Part shown: one piece after another, positions 9,580 through 29,838 of the stretch
Numbering within the stretch: position 1 is the stretch's first letter
Layout: every line of letters starts with the position of its first letter
NCBI GenBank assembly: GCA_021771265.1
Contig: JAETPK010000013.1
Location: 1 to 39,658 of the forward strand
Reading direction: 5' to 3'
Source of the DNA: Oscillospiraceae bacterium
Lineage (GTDB): Bacteria; Bacillota; Clostridia; Oscillospirales; Oscillospiraceae
DNA: 39,658 nt
Position numbers and translations under genes: made by a program
Notes under the pieces: generated by a model
Database searches by the model: none
What the model was told of the DNA's origin: nothing
What the model saw: only the letters and a program-made list of their open reading frames with translations

Positions 9580-10803
9580 ATGTCACAATACCAAGCTGTA
9601 TTTCTGATACTGCTCATCTTCTTCGTGGGCGACCTGGTGGGCGCCCTCACCAAGGCCAAGATCTCGTCCATGTTCGTCATCATGATGGGATTCCTGGTCC
9701 TGTTCCTCAGCGGTATGTATCCCGCGGACATCATGACCACGTCCGGCTTTGCCGCCGTGGCGTCCCTGGGCCAGTATTTCCTGCTGTTTAACATGGGCTC
9801 CTCCGTGGACATCCCCACCCTGCGCCGTGAGTGGCGCACCGTGGTGTGCGCCATCGTCGGCATGGCCGCCGCCATCGTGGGCTGCTGCGTGGCCATCCCC
9901 ATCATCGGCAAGGACTTTGCCATGGCGGCCGCTCCCGTTGTCAACGGCGGTATCGTGGCCACCACCACCATGGTGGACGCCTGCACCGAGAAGGGCCTGC
10001 CCGCCGCCGCCGCACTGGCCACCTTCATCTATGCCGTGCAGAAGTTCGTGGGCACCCTGCCCGCCTCCAACTGCGGCCTGAGCGTGGCCAACAAGCTGGT
10101 GGATGACCTGCGGGCCAAGCATGCCGCCGACCCCAACTACAGTTGGTATGCCGAGCAGGGCGGCGCCTCCGCCTCCGCCAAGGAGCCTTTCTGGAAGGGC
10201 ATCAAGAAGTATTACACCACCTTTATTTCTCTGGCCATCGGCGCCACCGCCATCGTGCTGTCCGAGACGCTGGCCAAGGCCTTCAAGACCCTGACCATCG
10301 GCGGCGTGCATCCCCTGAGCTTCATCAACATGTCCATCCTGTGCATGGTCTTCGGCATCGTGGCCCGCAACACCGGTCTGGTGCCTCCCAACATCATGCG
10401 TGACCAGGCCAAGGCCAACGGCATGTTCTCCTTCCTGTCCCTGTGCACCATCATCCCCTCCCTGGCCAAGATCGACGTCTCCATGCTGCCTTCCATCGGC
10501 TTTGCCACCGTGGTCATCTTCGTGCTGGTGATGGTGTTCACCTTCATCACCTTCATGCTGACTCCCTGCTGGAAGATCGTGGGCAGCAAGAAGCTGTCCA
10601 TCGGCATCGCCATGTGCCAGATGATCGGCTATCCCGGCACTGAGCTCATCGCCGCCGAGATCACCAACGCCGTTGCCCAGACCGATGAAGAGCGCGACGC
10701 CGTCACCGCCCGCATCCAGACCGCCTATGTCATCTCCGGCTTCACCTCCGTCACCATCTTGTCCGTGGTCATCGCCGGCGTCCTGGCTGGCTTCATCGGC
10801 TGA
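9580..10803 (+). CDS. Multi-pass transporter, distantly GltS (ESS)-like
   Basis: A 407-residue integral membrane protein with about 10-12 hydrophobic segments. The topology and several stretches resemble Na+/glutamate symporters of the ESS family: the segment LLFNMGSSVDIPTLRREW compares with the GltS helix-loop after its first domain, and the C-terminal half repeats the pattern (IIPSLAKIDVSMLP; IGYPGTELIAAEITNA). A hydrophilic loop of about 40 residues lies near 175-215. Similarity is weak and judged by eye, so call it a probable secondary transporter. It sits between the peptidases and an AEC transporter, which suggests it imports a peptide or amino-acid derivative. GGAGG lies 10 bp upstream of the start. 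Confidence 0.65.
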   Translation: MSQYQAVFLILLIFFVGDLVGALTKAKISSMFVIMMGFLVLFLSGMYPADIMTTSGFAAVASLGQYFLLFNMGSSVDIPTLRREWRTVVCAIVGMAAAIVGCCVAIPIIGKDFAMAAAPVVNGGIVATTTMVDACTEKGLPAAAALATFIYAVQKFVGTLPASNCGLSVANKLVDDLRAKHAADPNYSWYAEQGGASASAKEPFWKGIKKYYTTFISLAIGATAIVLSETLAKAFKTLTIGGVHPLSFINMSILCMVFGIVARNTGLVPPNIMRDQAKANGMFSFLSLCTIIPSLAKIDVSMLPSIGFATVVIFVLVMVFTFITFMLTPCWKIVGSKKLSIGIAMCQMIGYPGTELIAAEITNAVAQTDEERDAVTARIQTAYVISGFTSVTILSVVIAGVLAGFIG

Positions 10804-10811
10804 GAGAGGCC

Positions 10812-11720
10812 ATGCTGATCTGGATCCTGCTGAAGCAGATCGCCATTATGGCGCTGCTGATGGCGGTGGGCATCTACCTGAGCCGGAAGGGATTTCTCTC
10901 CCCTCAGGGAACGAAGGACCTGGGCGCCATCCTGCTGCGGATCATCATCCCCTGCGTCATCGTCAAATCGTATATCACCACATATTCCCGGGAGCGCCTG
11001 CTTGAGCTGGCGCTCTCGGCGGGTCTGGCCCTGGCGGCATTTGTCCTGGCCATGGGCATCGCCTATCTGGTATACGGAAAGCGCCGCCGCATTGAAAACT
11101 TTGCCTCTGCCTTCTGCAACGCCGGCTTCATCGGCATCCCCCTGGCCCAGGCGGTCATCGGTGACGAGGGCGTGTTCTATATGGCGGCCTCCGTGGCCCT
11201 GCTGAACCTGTTTCAGTGGACATATGGTGTATACATCATGACGGACCGGCGGGATTCGATCTCCGCTAAGACCATTGCAAAAAATCCGGTGGTCATCGCC
11301 ATCGTCATCGGCATCGCGCTGTTCCTCAGCCGTTTGCCGGTGCCGGGCATCGTGACCAGCACGCTGGGACACATCGCCGGCATGAACACCCCCGTGGCCA
11401 TGATCCTCATGGGCACCTACATGGCGAAGCTCCCCTGGCGGAAGCTGCTGGACAAGCGTGCCTACGGCTGCGTGCTGCTGCGGCTGGTGGTCATCCCCGC
11501 CGTGGTGCTGGCGGTGTTCTGGGCGCTGCCTATCTCCAACCAGAATGTGGCCCTGGCCGCCTATCTGGCCGCGGCTACCCCTGTGGGCGCCAACATCTGC
11601 GTGTTCGCCCAGCAGTATGACTGCGACTATGAGTTCAGCGTGGTCACTGTGTGCCTGAGCACCGTGCTGTCCATCGTCACGGTGCCCCTTATGGTATCCC
11701 TGGCCCAAATGCTCATTTAA
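10812..11720 (+). CDS. AEC-family (auxin efflux carrier-type) permease
   Basis: A 302-residue membrane protein with about ten helices in two repeated halves of five. Hallmarks are the N-terminal AILLRIIIPCVIVKSY stretch, the central NAGFIGIPLAQAVIGDEG motif (AEC family NxGxxGxPl) and the C-terminal ATPVGANICVFAQQY. Members move organic acids, amino acids or related anions. The gene begins 8 bp after the previous stop with GAGAGG as ribosome binding site, so it is co-transcribed with the two peptidases and the GltS-like protein. Import of substrate and export of product is a natural division between the two carriers, but this is inference. Confidence 0.9.
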   Translation: MLIWILLKQIAIMALLMAVGIYLSRKGFLSPQGTKDLGAILLRIIIPCVIVKSYITTYSRERLLELALSAGLALAAFVLAMGIAYLVYGKRRRIENFASAFCNAGFIGIPLAQAVIGDEGVFYMAASVALLNLFQWTYGVYIMTDRRDSISAKTIAKNPVVIAIVIGIALFLSRLPVPGIVTSTLGHIAGMNTPVAMILMGTYMAKLPWRKLLDKRAYGCVLLRLVVIPAVVLAVFWALPISNQNVALAAYLAAATPVGANICVFAQQYDCDYEFSVVTVCLSTVLSIVTVPLMVSLAQMLI

Positions 11721-20120: not shown

Positions 20121-20295
20121 AGGCAGTTTTGCACAAATCCGCGGGGCGGAAGGCCCTCCCCTTTCTGCGCGGGGAACAGAAACATGAGAAATTGGAAAAA
20201 ACATAAAATTATTTTCAATATTTTGGCATTTTTCACAAAAATTTGCGAAAAATTTACGTCATGAAAAAGTAAACAACGAATTTTTTTCCTAGAAC

Positions 20296-20340
20296 TGCGA
20301 AGATTTTTCTATCGTTTTTTCGCAGAGACGCCGCTATAAT
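20296..20340 (+). promoter_or_regulatory. mgl promoter with an inverted repeat over the -35 region
   Basis: A perfect TATAAT (20335-20340) has no good -35 box (TCGTTT at the right distance), which suggests activator dependence. An inverted repeat TGCGAA-N17-TTCGCA (20296-20301, 20319-20324) covers the -35 position and is a candidate site for the YesN-type regulator encoded downstream or for a LacI-type repressor. The bases from about 20185 to 20330 are markedly A/T-rich compared with the rest of the window; nothing else is seen between the MATE promoter and here. Confidence 0.5.
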
Positions 20341-21702: not shown

Positions 21703-23202
21703 ATGGATCAGCCGGCTCTGCTGGAAATGAAAAATATCAGCAAAGAATTCCCCGGCGTCAAGGCACTGGACAACGTGTCATTGACAGTCCGCCCCGGCAC
21801 TGTCCACGCTCTCATGGGGGAGAACGGCGCGGGTAAATCCACCCTCATGAAATGCCTGTTCGGCATTTACGCCAAGGACAGCGGCACCATTACCCTGGAC
21901 GGCAGGGAGGTCAACTTCAAAAGCTCCAAGGAGGCTCTGGAAAACGGTGTGGCCATGGTGCACCAGGAGCTGAACCAGGCCCTGACCCGCACCGTCACCG
22001 ACAACCTGTGGCTGGGCCGCTACCCCAAGGTGGGCGGCATCATGGTCAGCGAGGCCATTATGCGCAAGCGCACCAAGGAGATCTTCGAGCAGCTGGAGGT
22101 CCACGTGGACCCCAGGGCCGTCATGTCCACCCTGCCCGTTTCCCAACGGCAGATGGTGGAGATCGCCAAGGCCGTCAGCTATGATGCCAAGGTCATCGTG
22201 TTCGACGAGCCCACCTCGTCATTGACCGAGGTGGAGGTGGAGCACCTGTTCCGCATCATCAACATGCTGCGCAGCAAGGGCTGCGGCATCATTTACATCA
22301 GTCACAAGATGGAGGAGATCCTCCGCATCAGCGACGACGTTACCATCATGCGGGACGGCACCTGGGTGGCCACCCGGCCTGCCAAGGAGCTGACCATGGA
22401 TGAGATCATCCGCCTGATGGTGGGCCGTGAGCTCACCAACCGCTTCCCCCCCAAGGAAAACGTCCCCGGCGAGACCGTTTTGGAGGTGGAGCACCTGTCC
22501 GGCAAGTACACCCGGCTGAAGGATGCCTCCTTCCAGCTGCGCCAGGGCGAGATCCTGGGCATCGCCGGTCTGGACGGCTCCGGCCGCACGGAAGTGCTGG
22601 AGAACCTGTTCGGCGCCATGACCAAGGGCAGCGGCACTATCCGCCTCCACGGCAAGGAGATCAAGAACCGCAATCCCCGGGAGTCTATCAAAAACGGCTT
22701 CGCCCTGCTGACGGAGGAACGCCGGGCTACCGGCATCTTCGGTATCCGGGACATTCTGGACAACACCGTCATCTCCAACCTGAAGTCCTACCTCATGGGC
22801 GGCATCTGCCTCAACGACAAGAAAATGCGGGAGGACACGGATTGGGCCATCAAGGCCATGCGCATCAAGACGCCCAGCCAGAAAACGCAGATCCGCTCCC
22901 TGTCCGGCGGCAACCAGCAAAAGGTCATCATCGGCCGCTGGCTGCTGACGAAGCCGGAGGTCCTGCTGCTGGACGAGCCCACCCGTGGCATTGACGTGGG
23001 CGCCAAATACGAGATCTATCAGCTCATCATCGACCTTGCGAAAGAGGGCAAGGGCGTCATCATGGTCTCCTCCGAAATGCCGGAGCTGCTGGGCGTTTGT
23101 GACCGCATCCTGGTCATGTCCGGCGGACAGCTGGCCGGCGAGGTGGATGCCAGAACGACCAGCCAGGAGGAGATCTTGACCCTGGCCGCCAAATATGTGT
23201 AA
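21703..23202 (+). CDS. mglA: Galactose/methyl-galactoside ABC importer, ATP-binding protein
   Basis: A 499-residue tandem ATPase that powers the sugar importer from the cytoplasmic side. The first nucleotide-binding domain has Walker [10 protein letters not shown] (39-47) and Walker [12 protein letters not shown]. The second has a degenerate Walker A (GLDGSGRTE, no Lys), the signature LSGGNQQK and [11 protein letters not shown], the usual asymmetry of monosaccharide (CUT2) ATPases such as MglA/RbsA. GGAGG lies 8 bp before the start. It follows mglB after two hairpins and precedes mglC by 17 bp. Confidence 0.95.
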
Positions 23203-23219: not shown

Positions 23220-24293
23220 ATGAGTAACGAATCCAAGACTATGGAAAAAGAGGGCCGGGCCAACGCCCGGGCCAGACAGCCCTGGACCGGCAAGCGCGTG
23301 CTGGACCTGGTGCTGAACAACGCCTTGATCATCATCATGATTGTGGCTGTTATCTACATCGCCATCGTCAACCAAAACTTCCTGAAGCCCGCCTCCGTCA
23401 TCAACATCCTGGCCCAGACCTGCGCGTATCTGCCGGTGGCCCTGGGCGTGGGCGGCTGCATCGTGCTGACGGGCACCGACCTGTCCGCCGGCCGTATCGT
23501 GGGCCTGACGGCCTGTATCTCCGCCTCCCTGCTCCAGGCGGTCACCGCCTCCAGCAAGATGTGGGTGAACCTGACGCCGCCTCCCGTGCTGCTGGTGCTG
23601 CTGCTGGCCATGCTGGTGGGCGCCGCCTTCGGCGCGTTCAACGGCTTCTTCGTGGCCAAGTTTAAGCTGCATCCCTTCATCGTCACCCTGGCCACCCAGC
23701 TCATTATTTACACCTTCCTGCTGCTGTACATGAAGGCCGGCAACAACGGCGGCATGGCCATCTCCGGTCTGGACAAGTCCTACAGCAGCTTCATCACCGG
23801 CTCCATTCTGAAGGTGGCCGGCACGCCCATTCCCAACTATGTGTGGATCTCCCTGATCCTGGCGGTCATCATGTGGTTCATCTGGAACAAGACCACCTTC
23901 GGCAAGAACATGTTCGCTCTGGGCGCCAATGAGGAGGCCGCCCGGGTCTCCGGCGTCAACGTGTTCGCCACCACCATCATGGTCTTTGCCCTGGCCGGCG
24001 CCATGTACGCCGTCACCGGCTTCATCGAGGGTGCCCGCGTGGCCTCCAACACCGCCAACACCGGCCTGAACTACGAGTCCGACGCCATTGCGGCCTGCGT
24101 TATCGGCGGCGTCTCCTTCGTCGGCGGCATCGGCAAGATCCGCGGCGTCATCATCGGCGTTCTGATGCTGCGGCTGATCTTCGTTGGTCTGAACATGATC
24201 GGCGTGAACCAGGACCTGTTCTACATCATCAAGGGCGGCATCATCCTGTTTGCCTGCGCCCTGGATATGCGGAAGTATCTGGTGAAGAAGTAA
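23220..24293 (+). CDS. mglC: Galactose/methyl-galactoside ABC importer, permease
   Basis: A 357-residue membrane subunit of the CUT2 family, probably a homodimer, with about 8-10 helices after a hydrophilic N-terminus of some 35 residues. Recognisable segments are LGVGGCIVLTGTDLSAGRIVG (the family's conserved GTDLSxG), FVAKFKLHPFIVTLATQL, and the cytoplasmic coupling region FGKNMFALGANEEAARVSGV that contacts MglA. MglC members of Firmicutes share this N-terminal extension. It is last in the operon, followed directly by a strong terminator. Confidence 0.94.
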   Translation: MSNESKTMEKEGRANARARQPWTGKRVLDLVLNNALIIIMIVAVIYIAIVNQNFLKPASVINILAQTCAYLPVALGVGGCIVLTGTDLSAGRIVGLTACISASLLQAVTASSKMWVNLTPPPVLLVLLLAMLVGAAFGAFNGFFVAKFKLHPFIVTLATQLIIYTFLLLYMKAGNNGGMAISGLDKSYSSFITGSILKVAGTPIPNYVWISLILAVIMWFIWNKTTFGKNMFALGANEEAARVSGVNVFATTIMVFALAGAMYAVTGFIEGARVASNTANTGLNYESDAIAACVIGGVSFVGGIGKIRGVIIGVLMLRLIFVGLNMIGVNQDLFYIIKGGIILFACALDMRKYLVKK

Positions 24294-24306
24294 CTGCACA
24301 ACCTGC

Positions 24307-24338
24307 AAAAGGGCGCGCACCTTCGTGCGCGCCCTTTT
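24307..24338 (+). terminator. Intrinsic terminator of mglBAC
   Basis: AAAAGGGCGCGCAC pairs with GTGCGCGCCCTTTT around a CTTC tetraloop and runs into TTTTGTC. It separates the transporter operon from the sensing operon. Confidence 0.88.
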
Positions 24339-24342
24339 GTCT

Positions 24343-24404: not shown

Positions 24405-26000
24405 ATGGAGCGATACCGGGTGCTGCTGGTGGACGACGAAGAGGATATCCGGGTGGGCATCAGCCGGAAAATGGACTGGGAGGGCCTGGGCTTTACCCTG
24501 GTGGGCGAGGCGGAAAACGGACGAGACGCCCTGGAGCTGGCGGAGGCCCTGCAGCCGGATGTAGTGCTGACGGACATCAAGATGCCCTTCATGGATGGAC
24601 TGGAGCTGTGCGGCATCCTGACGGTCCGGCTGCCCGCCAGTAAATTCGTGGTATTTTCCGGCTTTGACGAATTCGAATACGCCAAGCAGGCCATCCAGAT
24701 GAACGTCTCCGAGTATATTCTGAAGCCCATCAATGCCGCGGAGCTGTCCGCTGTGCTGGAGAAGCTAAAGAACCAGCTGGACGCGGAGCGGATGGAGCGG
24801 CGGAACGCGGAGCTGCTGCGCCAGCGGTACGAGGAGAGCTTGCCGATCCTGCGGGAGCAGTTCTTCACCCGCCTGCTGGAAGGCCAGGTCCCCCGGGAGC
24901 GGATGTTGGAGCTGGCGGAGCGGTACGATGTGGACCTGAGCGGCGGCTGCTTCGCGGCGGCCATCGTCCACATAGACTGCGGCCGGGAGCGCAGCGAGCT
25001 GGAGAGCCTGTCCGTGGAGCAGCTGTTTTCAGAAAACCTGCGGCCGGAGCAGCTCCGCTGCCGGACATTTTTGTACAACGATTCCGTGGCCCTGCTGGCG
25101 GCGATGCCGGCGCCGGCGGCGGTGTACGACCTTATCCAGGCGGTGAACCGGGTGTGCGCCCTGGCGGAGAGCTATCTGGACCAGCGGCTGACGGTGGGCG
25201 TGGGTGCCCCCTGCGCCCGGCTGGAGGACCTGCCCCAATCCGCCGCAGGCGCCCGCAGCGCGCTGGAGTACCGGGGCTTGGTGGGCAAGGGTCAGGCTAT
25301 TTATATCGGCGACCTGGAGCCGGACGCCGGTGTCCGCCCCGCGTTCACAGAGAGCGATGAGGAGGAGCTGACCGGCGCTGTGAAGCTGCGGGACGAGAAG
25401 GCGGTCCGGGCGGTGGTGGAGCGACTGACGGACAAGGTCCGCTCCTCCGGTCAGACCATGTCCCAGTGTCAGTTATTTTTTCTGGAGCTGCTCACCTGCC
25501 TGCTGCGGCTGACCCGGGGCGCAGGGCTGGAGGTGGAGACGGTGTTTGGCACCGGCTTCACCGGCGCCGTACAGGCCACGGACTTCACCTCCCCGGACCA
25601 GATGGGCCGCTGGTGCCTGGAGCGGTGTCTGCGCATCCAGACCCTCATCCGCCGCCAGCGGACAGATACCACCGGCCGCATGGTGAAGGAAGCCAAGGCC
25701 TATATCAACGCCCATTACGGAGAGAGTGAGCTGTCGGTGGAGAAGCTGTGCGAGCATCTGCATCTGAGCCCGGCGTATTTTTCCACGCTGTTCAAGCGGG
25801 AGGTGGGCATGAGCTTCATCGCTTACGTGACGGTGGTGCGCATGGAGGCCGCCGCCTCCATGCTGCGCAGCACGGAGGATAAGACGTACCTCATTGCCCG
25901 CCGCTGCGGCTATGATGATCCCAATTATTTCAGCTATGTCTTCAAGCGGCACTTCGGTCTGACACCCACCAAATACCGAGCGGGGGACGCCGGAAATTAA
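24405..26000 (+). CDS. YesN-type response regulator (receiver plus AraC domain)
   Basis: A 531-residue regulator. The N-terminal receiver has the acidic pair in VDDEED (10-14), the phospho-acceptor Asp57 in VLTDIKMP, the Ser in VVFSGF and Lys107 in YILKP. A long central linker (about 130-410) is typical of YesN proteins. The C-terminal 100 residues form an AraC double helix-turn-helix (SVEKLCEHLHLSPAYFSTLF and YLIARRCGYDDPNYFSYVF). GGAGG lies 7 bp before ATG. It precedes its cognate YesM-type kinase by 25 bp. By position its natural target is the weak mgl promoter 4 kb upstream. Confidence 0.93.
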   Translation: MERYRVLLVDDEEDIRVGISRKMDWEGLGFTLVGEAENGRDALELAEALQPDVVLTDIKMPFMDGLELCGILTVRLPASKFVVFSGFDEFEYAKQAIQMNVSEYILKPINAAELSAVLEKLKNQLDAERMERRNAELLRQRYEESLPILREQFFTRLLEGQVPRERMLELAERYDVDLSGGCFAAAIVHIDCGRERSELESLSVEQLFSENLRPEQLRCRTFLYNDSVALLAAMPAPAAVYDLIQAVNRVCALAESYLDQRLTVGVGAPCARLEDLPQSAAGARSALEYRGLVGKGQAIYIGDLEPDAGVRPAFTESDEEELTGAVKLRDEKAVRAVVERLTDKVRSSGQTMSQCQLFFLELLTCLLRLTRGAGLEVETVFGTGFTGAVQATDFTSPDQMGRWCLERCLRIQTLIRRQRTDTTGRMVKEAKAYINAHYGESELSVEKLCEHLHLSPAYFSTLFKREVGMSFIAYVTVVRMEAAASMLRSTEDKTYLIARRCGYDDPNYFSYVFKRHFGLTPTKYRAGDAGN

Positions 26001-26025
26001 CGACACGGGAAAGGGGGCGGCGCGG

Positions 26026-27849
26026 GTGAAAGATGCCGTTCAGTCTTTGCGCCGACGGTGGCAGGAGCTGTACAGCCGCTCCAGCATCCAGATGATCCTG
26101 TCCCTGTCCTTCACCGCCGTGGCGGTGCTGGGCCTTGTAGGCCTGGGTCTGACGCTGTTCCTGCGGTTCTCTTCCTCCAACAACACCCAGCAGGCGGAAA
26201 ACAGCCAGCGGGTGCTGACCCAGGTGAACTGGAACCTGGACGCCTATCTGCGGCGGATCATGCGGGTGTCGGACACCGCTTATTACAGCGTCATCAAAAA
26301 TACGGACGTGGAGGACAAGAGCCTCTCCCCCGCTCTGGACCTGCTGTATGAGAATAACCGGGACTCCCTGGTGTCCATCGCCGTGTTTTCCCAGGAGGGC
26401 GGACTCGTCGCCGACGCGCCCCTTCAGAAGCTGAAAAACAGCGTTTCCCCCCGGTGGGAGGATTGGTTTACCCAGGCCACCAATAAGATCGAAAACCTGC
26501 ATTTTTCCACGCCTCATGTGCAGAATCTGTGGGAGGACCCGGACCAGCGATACCGCTGGGTGGTGTCCCTCAGCCGGTATGTGGAGCTGTCCCGGGGCGG
26601 CAGCATGGAGGGCGGCGTGCTGCTGGTGGACATGAGCTTCAGCGGCATCGAGCAGATCTGCAAGGATGTGGACCTGGCCGGCTCCGGGTATCTCTACCTC
26701 ATCGACGGCAGCGGCGAGATCATTTACCACCCTCGCCAGCAGCTGATCTACGCCGGTCTCCAGGAGGAGAACAACCTGGCCGCCGCCGGCTATTCCGACG
26801 GCAGCCACAAAGAGACCTTTCAGGGCAGCCGCCGGCAGGTGACGGTAAAGACCGTGGGTTATACCGGCTGGAAGCTGGTGGGCGTGGTGCCCATGGAGAG
26901 CCTGTGGGACAATTATGGACAGCTGGTGCTGTTTGTGCTGTTCGTGCTGCTGTTTTCCGTGTTTTTGCTGGTGTTTGTGAACCTGCGCCTTTCGGAGTGG
27001 ATCACGGCGCCGGTGAAAAAGCTGGACCGGGCGGTGAAGGACCTGGAGGCCCGGAGGAAGGATATTGACTTTGACGTGGGCGGACCCTATGAGGTGGAGC
27101 ACCTGAGCCACTCTCTGCGGTCCATGGCCTCCACCATGGACCACCTGATGGAGGATATCATCCAGCAGGAGGAGCAGAAGCGCCGCAGCGAGCTGGATGT
27201 GCTCCAGTCCCAGATCAACCCCCACTTCCTGTACAACACCCTGGACAGCGTGGTGTGGATGACGGAAAACGGCCGCACCCAGGACGCGGTGGTCATGTTG
27301 ACCTCCCTGGCCCGCTTCTTCCGCATCTCCCTGAGCCGGGGCAGCAACGTCATCTCCATCGGCGACGAGCTGGAGCACGCCCGTCATTACCTGACCATCC
27401 AGAAAATGCGCTATAAAAACAAATTCTCCGCCGCCATCACGGCGGAGGAGGGCGTGGAGGGGCTGTATACCATCAAGCTCATTGTCCAGCCCGTGCTGGA
27501 GAACGCCATCTATCATGGCATGGCCTACGCCGACGGCGACGGCGAGGTGGCGGTCCGTGCCTTCCGGGAGGGGGATGACGTGATCATCCAGGTGACGGAC
27601 AACGGCCCCGGGATGCCGGAGGAGGTGGTGGAGCGTCTGCTGGACCCCGGCGGTCCCACCGCCCTGGCCGGAGCAAAGGGCTCCGGCATCGGCTTTCGAA
27701 ACGTCCACCAGCGGCTGCGGCTGACTTTCGGTCCGGCCTACGGCCTTACGATCCTCAGTGAGCCGGATGATGGCACCACCGTCCGCATCCGGCTGCCGGC
27801 ACTGGACGAGGAGGCCGCCCGGCGGTATCGAAAGGAGGAGACGCCATGA
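26026..27849 (+). CDS. YesM/LytS-type sensor histidine kinase
   Basis: A 607-residue kinase starting at GTG with GGGGGCGG upstream. Helices at about 22-46 and 299-320 bracket an extracytoplasmic domain of some 250 residues resembling dCache (GYLYLIDGSGEIIYHP; YTGWKLVGVVP). A HAMP-like segment follows. The His_kinase (PF06580-type) core has the phospho-acceptor in QINPHFLYNTLD (His400), Asn493 in LENAIYHG, DNGPGMP (525-531) and GSGIGFRNV (552-560). It overlaps the next gene by four bases (ATGA), tying it tightly to the binding protein that follows. Ligand may reach it through the two binding proteins of the operon instead of directly. Confidence 0.93.
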   Translation: MKDAVQSLRRRWQELYSRSSIQMILSLSFTAVAVLGLVGLGLTLFLRFSSSNNTQQAENSQRVLTQVNWNLDAYLRRIMRVSDTAYYSVIKNTDVEDKSLSPALDLLYENNRDSLVSIAVFSQEGGLVADAPLQKLKNSVSPRWEDWFTQATNKIENLHFSTPHVQNLWEDPDQRYRWVVSLSRYVELSRGGSMEGGVLLVDMSFSGIEQICKDVDLAGSGYLYLIDGSGEIIYHPRQQLIYAGLQEENNLAAAGYSDGSHKETFQGSRRQVTVKTVGYTGWKLVGVVPMESLWDNYGQLVLFVLFVLLFSVFLLVFVNLRLSEWITAPVKKLDRAVKDLEARRKDIDFDVGGPYEVEHLSHSLRSMASTMDHLMEDIIQQEEQKRRSELDVLQSQINPHFLYNTLDSVVWMTENGRTQDAVVMLTSLARFFRISLSRGSNVISIGDELEHARHYLTIQKMRYKNKFSAAITAEEGVEGLYTIKLIVQPVLENAIYHGMAYADGDGEVAVRAFREGDDVIIQVTDNGPGMPEEVVERLLDPGGPTALAGAKGSGIGFRNVHQRLRLTFGPAYGLTILSEPDDGTTVRIRLPALDEEAARRYRKEETP

Positions 27850-28805
27850 AGCGAAAGATCCTTTTGCAGCTGGTGGTGCCTCTCTTGAGCCTTTGCATGC
27901 TGTTTTTGCTGCTGGCCGTGCAGCCGGACCCCGCCAGCCGCTCTGTGGAGCCGGTGGAGCTGTCGGTCATCCTGCGGGAGACGGATACCGCCGCTTTGAA
28001 CGCCGCCCGCCAGGGTATGGAGCAGGCGGCGGCGGACCTGAACGCGGAGCTGCGGCTGCTGACCCTCACCACCGCCGGCAGCGGGGAGGAACAGCGGGCG
28101 CTTTTGGAGCGGGAGGTCAGCGGCGGCGCGGGGGGCGTGGTGCTGGTGCCGGCGGACCGGGAGACTCTGGCGGACAGTGTGAGGCAGGCTGCCGGCCAAG
28201 TGCCGGTGGTGACCATGGAAACGGATATGGGCGAAAGCGGCGCCAAGGCCTGGGTGGGAGCGGATAACGCCGCTCTTGGGACCGCTCTGGGCAAGGCCGC
28301 CCTGAACGGTGTCCGCCCCGGTGAAACGGTGCTGCTGCTGGATAGTCTCTCCGGTGACAACGCCGTCCGAGAGCGGCTGGAGGCCGCGGCGGCGGTGCTG
28401 AAGACAGAGGGGCGAACGGTGGAGGTCTGCACACCAGGAGAAAGGCCGCTGTCCGATGCTCTGAAGACGGCGCTGTCGGAGCTGCGTCCGTCTCTGGTGA
28501 TGGCCTTTGAGGCCGGCGCGCTGGAGACGGCCGCGTCCGTGCTGGAGACCGTAGAGCAGCCGGCGCCCCTGTTGTACGGCGCGGGGGCCAGCACCGCCAT
28601 CGCCGCGGGACTGGAGCAGGGCCGTATTACCGCCATCGCCGCGCAAAACGAATTCGCGGCAGGGTACCTGGCGGTGGAGGCGGCGGTCCGTCTGGCCAGG
28701 CATCAGACCTGGGAGACGGAGGACCCGCTGGAGTTCTCCATCCTCCGGCGGGAGAATATGTACGAACCAGACAGCCAGAAGCTGCTGTTTCCGGTGATCC
28801 GGTGA
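27846..28805 (+). CDS. Membrane-anchored periplasmic-binding (type 1) protein, likely sensor subunit
   Basis: A 319-residue protein with an N-terminal hydrophobic helix (about 6-24) and a type 1 periplasmic-binding fold of the RbsB/Peripla_BP_4 kind (VELSVILRETDTAALN; GGVVLVPADRETLADSV; VPVVTMETDM). There is no lipobox: the one cysteine inside the helix is preceded by LSL. It is therefore probably held by an uncleaved anchor, unlike importer-type binding proteins. The start overlaps the kinase stop (ATGA). No ATPase or permease gene accompanies it. By analogy with XylFII, which binds LytS in Clostridium, it may present sugar to the kinase; this is inference. Confidence 0.8.
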   Translation: MKRKILLQLVVPLLSLCMLFLLLAVQPDPASRSVEPVELSVILRETDTAALNAARQGMEQAAADLNAELRLLTLTTAGSGEEQRALLEREVSGGAGGVVLVPADRETLADSVRQAAGQVPVVTMETDMGESGAKAWVGADNAALGTALGKAALNGVRPGETVLLLDSLSGDNAVRERLEAAAAVLKTEGRTVEVCTPGERPLSDALKTALSELRPSLVMAFEAGALETAASVLETVEQPAPLLYGAGASTAIAAGLEQGRITAIAAQNEFAAGYLAVEAAVRLARHQTWETEDPLEFSILRRENMYEPDSQKLLFPVIR

Positions 28806-28815
28806 AGGAGGCCCT

Positions 28816-29838
28816 ATGAGACGAATCATTTCCCTGCTGGCCGTGCTGGCGCTGCTGCTGAGCGGCTGCGGAACGGATAAGGCGCCCACCGTCCGGGTGG
28901 GCGTGGCGCTGTATGACCAGAGCGACACCTTCATCTCCACCATGGCCCGGCAGCTTCAGCAGCTGTTCCAGGAGGAGGAGCAGGGGCGGGGCATCAAGAT
29001 CAACCTGAGCCTGTCGGACGGACAGGGCAGCCAAACCTTGCAGAACGAACAGGTGGACCGCTTTTTGAACCAGGGCTACGATATCATCTGTGTCAATATC
29101 GTGGACCGCACTGCCGCCGCCGTCATCGTGGACAAGGCCCAGGCGGCGGACGTGCCGGTGATCTTTTTCAACCGGGAGCCGGTGGAGGAGGACCTGCGCC
29201 GCTGGGAGGGAGCCTATTACGTGGGCGCCTATGCCGAGCAGGGCGGACGGCTTCAGGGCCAGCTGGTGCTGGACGCCTGGCGGGAGGACGCCGCCGCGCT
29301 GGACCGCAGCGGTGATGGCGTTCTGCAATATGTGGTGTTGGAGGGAGAGGCCGGCCATCAGGACACTCTTTTGCGGACGGAGTACAGCATCCAGACCCTC
29401 ACCGCCGGCGGTATGGAGATCGAAAAGCTGGCCAGTGCCACTGCCAACTGGCAGCGCAGCCAGGCCAGCGCCCGTATGAACCAGTGGCTCCAGCAATACG
29501 GCGACGCCATGGAGGCGGTGTTCGCCAACAATGACGACATGGCGCTGGGAGCCATCGACGCCTGCCTTTCCGCGGGAATGACCGTGGAAGAGCTGCCCTA
29601 TATCGTGGGGGTGGACGCTACGGAGCCGGCGCTGGAGGCCGTGCGGAACGGAACGCTGAAGGGCACCGTCTGCAACGACGCCGCCGGACAGGCAAAGAGC
29701 ATCGTGGCCCTCAGCTGCGCCCTACTGGACGGGGAGGCTCCGGAGTCGGCGGTGGAGCTGGAGGACGGTAAATATGTCTGGCTGCCCTACGCCTCTGTCA
29801 CCGCGGAAAATCTGGAGGACCATTTGAAAACAGAGTAA
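28816..29838 (+). CDS. MglB-like sugar-binding lipoprotein in the sensing operon
   Basis: A 340-residue lipoprotein with lipobox LSGC (Cys18) and an MglB-type fold. The calcium-loop equivalent reads DRSGDGVLQYVVLEGEAGHQ and the hinge-proximal VPVIFFNREPVEEDL matches the importer's IPIIFFNREV, so it probably binds the same or a related sugar. It lies 10 bp after the anchored binding-protein gene with AAGGAGG as ribosome binding site. It could be a second, differently tuned receptor for MglAC, or a ligand carrier for the kinase complex. It is clearly diverged from the mglB product, so it is not a recent duplicate. Confidence 0.88.
   Translation: MRRIISLLAVLALLLSGCGTDKAPTVRVGVALYDQSDTFISTMARQLQQLFQEEEQGRGIKINLSLSDGQGSQTLQNEQVDRFLNQGYDIICVNIVDRTAAAVIVDKAQAADVPVIFFNREPVEEDLRRWEGAYYVGAYAEQGGRLQGQLVLDAWREDAAALDRSGDGVLQYVVLEGEAGHQDTLLRTEYSIQTLTAGGMEIEKLASATANWQRSQASARMNQWLQQYGDAMEAVFANNDDMALGAIDACLSAGMTVEELPYIVGVDATEPALEAVRNGTLKGTVCNDAAGQAKSIVALSCALLDGEAPESAVELEDGKYVWLPYASVTAENLEDHLKTE

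Follow-up and report, generated by a model that had tools for sequence, protein, structure and literature searches.

A conserved regulator-kinase quartet with two binding proteins, predicted to sense galactose/glucose in Clostridia

Contig JAETPK010000013.1 of assembly GCA_021771265.1 (positions 1 to 39,658, forward strand) comes from an Oscillospiraceae bacterium, and the whole stretch of 39,658 nucleotides is referred to here as the window. It carries four adjoining genes that may form a sugar sensor: a response regulator (RR), a histidine kinase (HK), and two periplasmic-binding proteins, PBP1 and PBP2. The sugar importer mglBAC lies upstream of them. The features are listed below, where GGBP stands for galactose/glucose-binding protein.

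24405..26000, plus strand: RR, YesN-type, with receiver, GGDEF_2 and AraC-type helix-turn-helix domains
26026..27849, plus strand: HK, YesM-type, with GTG start, dCache_1 ectodomain (residues about 55-286), His_kinase and HATPase_c
27846..28805, plus strand: PBP1, Peripla_BP_4, a binding-protein fold anchored by an N-terminal membrane helix and lacking the sugar-binding Asp/Asn of the family
28816..29838, plus strand: PBP2, Peripla_BP_4 lipoprotein with lipobox LSGC, complete galactose/glucose-binding pocket and calcium loop
20405..21517, plus strand: mglB, the binding protein of the importer itself, with 6 of 10 GGBP residues in its pocket (DYNNERWNDQ)
21703..23202, plus strand: mglA, importer ATPase, from gene calls and domain scans
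23220..24293, plus strand: mglC, importer permease, from gene calls and domain scans
20278..20320, plus strand: predicted RR operator, a direct repeat of 43 bp (period 21 bp) with TATAAT behind it at 20335-20340
24305..24340, plus strand: terminator-like hairpin of 16 pairs between mglC and the RR gene

Gene calls and domain scans agree with a preliminary description of the locus in the order RR, HK, anchored PBP1 and MglB-like lipoprotein PBP2, and in the coordinates. They also bear out its statements that the PBP1 start codon overlaps the HK stop codon (ATGA), that neither binding protein has an ATPase or permease of its own, and that a complete importer lies upstream of the sensor genes. 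The Cache-like domain noted there in the kinase is dCache_1 by Pfam (76.2 bits, cut-off 45). An amino-acid sensor of the dCache_1AA type is disfavoured: the Arg of that motif, two residues ahead of a Trp-aromatic pair, occurs in 1 of 85 cases.

The four genes are conserved as a group. When 150 genomes of the family were searched with PBP1, 25 gave a match, among them the window's own. Gene context was read at 19 of the 34 places found (the remainder being weaker), and at 46 of 47 (the rest one fragment) and 41 of 68 (the rest weaker) in two further searches. In the window, as in each of its seven strongest relatives, the order is importer substrate-binding protein (SBP)-mglA-mglC-RR-HK-PBP1-PBP2. 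From a PBP2 search of a named genome collection, the best 80 of 339 loci were kept. These were found with two peptide patterns, one of which contains the pocket residue N211 and biases the sample; the sample drawn by PBP1 is free of this bias. The two samples overlap, with at least nine contigs of equal length in both (L037/L095, L038/L110, L039/L091, L040/L151, L162/L084, L163/L146, L164/L131, L165/L147, and L167/L141). The preliminary description had named missing co-occurrence of the kinase with both binding-protein genes as a refutation; co-occurrence was found, with PBP1 directly ahead of PBP2 in 77 of the 80 loci. The PBP2 matches in the remaining three (L140, L145, and L154) are importer binding proteins that have mglA and mglC behind them. 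Among 78 PBP1-PBP2 pairs, including that of the window, the kinase is visible in 75 and lies beyond the contig end in three. The four-base HK/PBP1 overlap is found in 65 of these 75 with automatic start choice. Hosts of the quartet include Oscillibacter, Dysosmobacter, Pseudoflavonifractor, Anaerotruncus, Butyricicoccus, Caproicibacter, and Clostridium beijerinckii HUN142. The arrangement is not due to chance.

The importer upstream of the quartet is of two types, with mglA 84-93% (type 1) or 53-58% (type 2) identical to that of the window. In L173 and L175, it is on the opposite strand. Since two importer types are found upstream of one and the same quartet, PBP2 is to be counted with the sensor. 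The 29 sensor PBP2s fall on one side of a branch with SH-aLRT support of 100 in a tree of 71 binding proteins, and their sister group consists of importer proteins (L140, L145, L154, and L244). The order in L244, regulator-kinase-PBP1-GGBP-mglA-mglC, may resemble the ancestral one, although the PBP1 of L244 is not the nearest to quartet PBP1 in the tree. The idea that PBP2 is a spare importer subunit loses ground, as PBP2 stays with the kinase across importer types and forms a separate clade.

The best NCBIfam model for PBP2 is MglB, at 255.5 bits under the cut-off of 420, which makes the protein GGBP-like without its being filed as MglB. MglB of the window's importer is likewise under this cut-off (188.5 bits). 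The ten residues that we take to contact galactose/glucose in E. coli MglB are all kept in the 78 aligned PBP2s, the window's included. Type-1 importer MglB keeps six of them in 34 of 34 proteins, the other four being changed (F16Y, H152N, D154E, and N256Q). The type-2 importer protein keeps nine in 15 cases and ten in 7, out of 22 that take in three loci without the quartet. In the PBP1-drawn sample, 23 of 25 complete PBP2s keep all ten. A loose lipobox pattern is found in 69 of the 78 PBP2s, and the Cys is seen by eye in two more (L079 and L141). L115, L144, L149, and L150 have a hydrophobic N-terminus in place of the Cys, perhaps a second mode of anchoring, and three others are not classifiable.

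PBP1 has no lipobox in any of 78 proteins by script, four of them without a visible true N-terminus, and its AlphaFold2 model has an N-terminal helix at residues 2-24. It is thus anchored without a lipobox, as first described. The best NCBIfam name for PBP1 is TorT, at 34.5 bits and far below the cut-off of 200. TorT is a binding-protein fold that works with TorS, a hybrid kinase, and its ligand is trimethylamine N-oxide. TorS-TorT and LuxPQ are absent among the matches listed in a structure search, which excludes nothing. In RbsB of the CUT2 family, Asp215 and Asn190 are residues of the sugar pocket. When 74 of the 78 PBP1s are aligned with RbsB (L093, L106, and L113 are cut, and the start of L115 is mis-assigned), Asp215 is replaced by Gly in 73 and Asn190 by Glu or Asp in 72. 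By eye, four of five solved relatives aligned to the PBP1 profile have Asp at the Gly position, and the fifth has it next to that position, in a gap.

The state of this pocket goes with the presence of PBP2. From 78 kinase-linked PBP1 loci, six with contig ends within 1.5 kb were set aside. Both residues are kept in 45 of the 47 PBP1s without an orphan PBP2 and one residue in the other 2, while both are lost in 24 of the 25 with an orphan PBP2 and one in the remaining protein. Among the six set aside, four keep both residues, L038 lost both, and L233 lost one. The PBP1 tree explains pocket loss and PBP2 gain by one change, so that the association is one long-kept event and not many; the P value of the table (2e-17) is not used as evidence because of this single origin. 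The preliminary description had assigned both binding proteins to a galactose-type ligand. This stands for PBP2, whose pocket has all ten GGBP residues, but it does not carry over to PBP1, which lacks the sugar-holding Asp and Asn; two galactose binders side by side are therefore disfavoured. PBP1 resembles an adapter, or else a receptor with another ligand.

The 43-bp direct repeat with its 21-bp period is found upstream of the importer SBP gene in 46 of 52 regions (allowing 14 mismatches from the seed), usually directly ahead of a -10-like box. Since the seed was chosen by eye from these same regions, it is fairer to train on one importer type and score the other. A matrix from type-1 regions places 16 of 18 type-2 regions above the maximum of the shuffles (simple two-base block shuffles), and the reverse places 31 of 34. 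All 43 sites scoring at least 40 in the 80 loci precede an importer SBP gene (30 of type 1 and 13 of type 2); the best score in 61 loci without the quartet is 22.4. The other 37 loci have no site at score 40. Many of these stop short upstream, yet L139, L143, L144, L149, L150, L153, L156, and L158 reach far enough. A degenerate pattern with up to 3 mismatches has a single match in the 2.3 Mb genome (about 95% complete), at 20278. The conservation of the repeat before both importer types makes mglBAC the probable target of the regulator; the repeat is a predicted operator, and we infer that it is the operator of this regulator. The matrix finds no second site in the window, and hence neither the sensor operon nor the gal genes have one in front. 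The latter (galK, galT, and galM) are on the plus strand, beyond two minus-strand features downstream of the quartet, a Mem_trans transporter gene and a frame resembling the AraC-type part of the RR.

Evolutionary distances link the sensor proteins as well. Across 33 type-1 loci, the distances of the kinase ectodomain, PBP1, and PBP2 have pairwise partial correlations of 0.52-0.55 after removal of mglA, mglC, the rest of the kinase, and the regulator, and none of 1000 permutations is as high. These values support contact but do not prove it. PBP1 is the fastest-changing member, with a mean distance of 1.09 compared with 0.56-0.58 for the kinase ectodomain and PBP2.

These observations can be combined in one mechanism, to which we give an even chance: the quartet would be a four-component galactose/glucose sensor, in which PBP2 binds the sugar, PBP1 relays to the kinase, and the RR activates mglBAC. 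PBP2 would be a lipid-anchored GGBP that was recruited from an importer and binds galactose or glucose. Membrane-anchored PBP1 would sit with the dCache ectodomain and signal that PBP2 has closed. The kinase would phosphorylate the YesN-type regulator, which would bind the 43-bp repeat ahead of mglB and switch the importer on, activation being the presumed sign of regulation. A more specific form is offered tentatively, at slightly under an even chance: a sugar-blind, anchored pseudo-receptor reads a sugar-loaded second SBP and relays to the dCache kinase, and this arrangement arose once in Clostridia and outlasted importer replacement. The conserved quartet and the galactose/glucose-type pocket of PBP2 thus support a binding-protein-assisted sensor with two binding proteins on the sensor side, as originally proposed. 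The novelty lies in splitting the work between a lipoprotein competent for sugar and an anchored partner that lacks its family's sugar ligands. Kinase-linked binding proteins are normally taken as the ligand receptor, and here one seems to have turned into the reader of another. Since relatives with the older one-protein design are on the same tree, the origin of the co-receptor is directly testable by gene removal or swap. For many little-studied gut Oscillospirales, a galactose/glucose sensing circuit can be predicted, operator included.

Several observations weigh against this mechanism. The pocket of PBP2 has 9 of 10 residues in L231 and 8 of 10 in L259. In L230, which is among the 25, the PBP2 frame (10267-11277) is broken in two pieces and the rest of the quartet, with PBP1 and the kinase, is open; this contig has the length of a whole genome. 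The coupling of pocket loss and PBP2 gain is one evolutionary event and does not amount to many independent cases. L251 has partly lost the pocket, yet it has no orphan PBP2; this kinase-linked PBP1 (L251:5732-8317) has a long branch beside the quartet clade and the pocket FSNQDDQ, and may be an intermediate. The same partial correlations with MglB are 0.22-0.28 and not nil, reached by 1 to 18 of 1000 permutations. At the seed threshold, 6 of the 52 regions lack the repeat. It is weak or missing in distant quartets, with none found at score 25 in L172, L173, L175, L176, L229, L231, and L259. Finally, the pocket positions of PBP1 are more conserved than its average (0.69 compared with 0.52, the figure for the sugar-competent relatives being 0.85), and they form a new signature: E125, S/T126, R177, E/D222, and G247 in window numbering. 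The cleft does not look like random decay, and PBP1 may bind another ligand.

This last point leads to a two-signal receptor, in which the PBP1 cleft binds a different ligand, PBP2 binds galactose/glucose, and the kinase integrates both. The new signature favours it, and so does the fact that the kinase-linked SBP binds the ligand in known systems, as the discussion of PMC10384115 presents them. The sugar-holding residues of the family are gone in nearly all PBP1s, however, and PBP1 changes faster than its partners. Both facts leave room for a ligand, and we hold the two-signal receptor to be unlikely. In another arrangement the kinase reads PBP2 directly, each binding protein contacts the ectodomain separately, and PBP1 is a scaffold or a regulator of basal activity. 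The ectodomain distances indeed correlate about equally with PBP1 and PBP2, and direct contact of XylFII with the kinase LytS is described in PMC9769921; we consider this improbable nonetheless.

Compared with the relay through PBP1, a second transport receptor feeding MglAC, with PBP1 alone serving the kinase, is still less probable: the lipoprotein nature of PBP2, its intact pocket and its importer sister clade speak for this, but PBP2 stays with the kinase when the importer is exchanged or on the other strand, follows 25 of 25 kinase-linked PBP1s of the clade that have room for a visible neighbour, has distances that follow the kinase and PBP1 more than MglB, and in the window is behind the terminator-like hairpin in an apparently separate unit. 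Hairpins like this one are found in 35 of 59 short-gap loci (window included) and 0-2 times in each of ten shuffles; the finder used gives none in the other 24. As the hairpin parts mglC from the RR gene, the window probably has separate transcription units for importer and sensor, which counts against one operon for both.

The quartet is a variation on known binding-protein/kinase/regulator systems such as XylFII-LytS-YesN and CuaDSR, which are described with one sensing SBP. As in these sensors, an SBP adjoins kinase and regulator without an ATPase or permease of its own, but two SBP genes are present in 77 of 80 loci. XylFII has an uncleaved N-terminal membrane anchor and no lipobox, which PBP1 shares, and the parallel to XylFII-LytS drawn in the preliminary description is a good one. 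In the xylose sensor XylFII-LytS-YesN of Clostridium beijerinckii, the one sensing SBP is itself the sugar binder, whereas the quartet has a PBP1 without the family's sugar ligands and an added sugar-competent SBP. In Geobacillus stearothermophilus, AraPST senses sugar by a binding protein, kinase, and regulator with a single sensing SBP, and GanP has a signalling role. GanP is a glucose-galactose binding protein near PBP1 in sequence and fold, and its residue opposite the PBP1 Gly in the printed alignment is Asp. GltB of Pseudomonas aeruginosa is a single SBP that serves transport too. In GltB-GtrS-GltR a two-component system is activated by a glucose-binding protein (PMC7927077), much as is proposed for the quartet. 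The ectodomain of LytS, a four-helix module (PMC9769921), differs from the dCache of the quartet kinase. CuaDSR of Ruminiclostridium cellulolyticum (PMC10384115) is like the quartet in having a lipoprotein SBP together with a kinase and a regulator and in keeping sensing and uptake SBPs separate, and it induces the importer next to it, as is predicted for the quartet; it is unlike the quartet in its one sensing SBP, which is for cellobiose, and that text describes no sugar-blind partner. The discussion of that paper treats one sensing SBP with a separate uptake SBP as established in C. beijerinckii, G. stearothermophilus, and R. cellulolyticum. NagB1 of Paenibacillus adjoins a two-component system, according to PMC8233162. 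Searches of a library of openly licensed papers gave no description of a second, sugar-blind sensing SBP.

Some loci have other arrangements. In L145 (563-4594), PBP1-HK-RR precedes an importer GGBP, which we take to be the order of xylFII-lytS-yesN. The Clostridium quartets L229 (11949-14095) and L158 (11523-13669) have two extra GGBP-like genes downstream of PBP2, beyond which no importer genes were recognised; both extra genes of L229 have the type-1 importer pocket DYNNERWNDQ. Importer SBPs beside the one-protein sensors of L042-L046 (e.g., L042:8527-9858, minus strand) start near MglB residue 85, and those of L178-L182 and L184 probably have the same late start. The one scanned, from L042, has a Pfam Peripla_BP_7 domain at its end. 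It is presumably comparable to the circularly permuted Treponema MglB-2, and 5jx2 is among the structure matches listed. The MglC-like frames in L042-L045 are 552-553 amino acids long.
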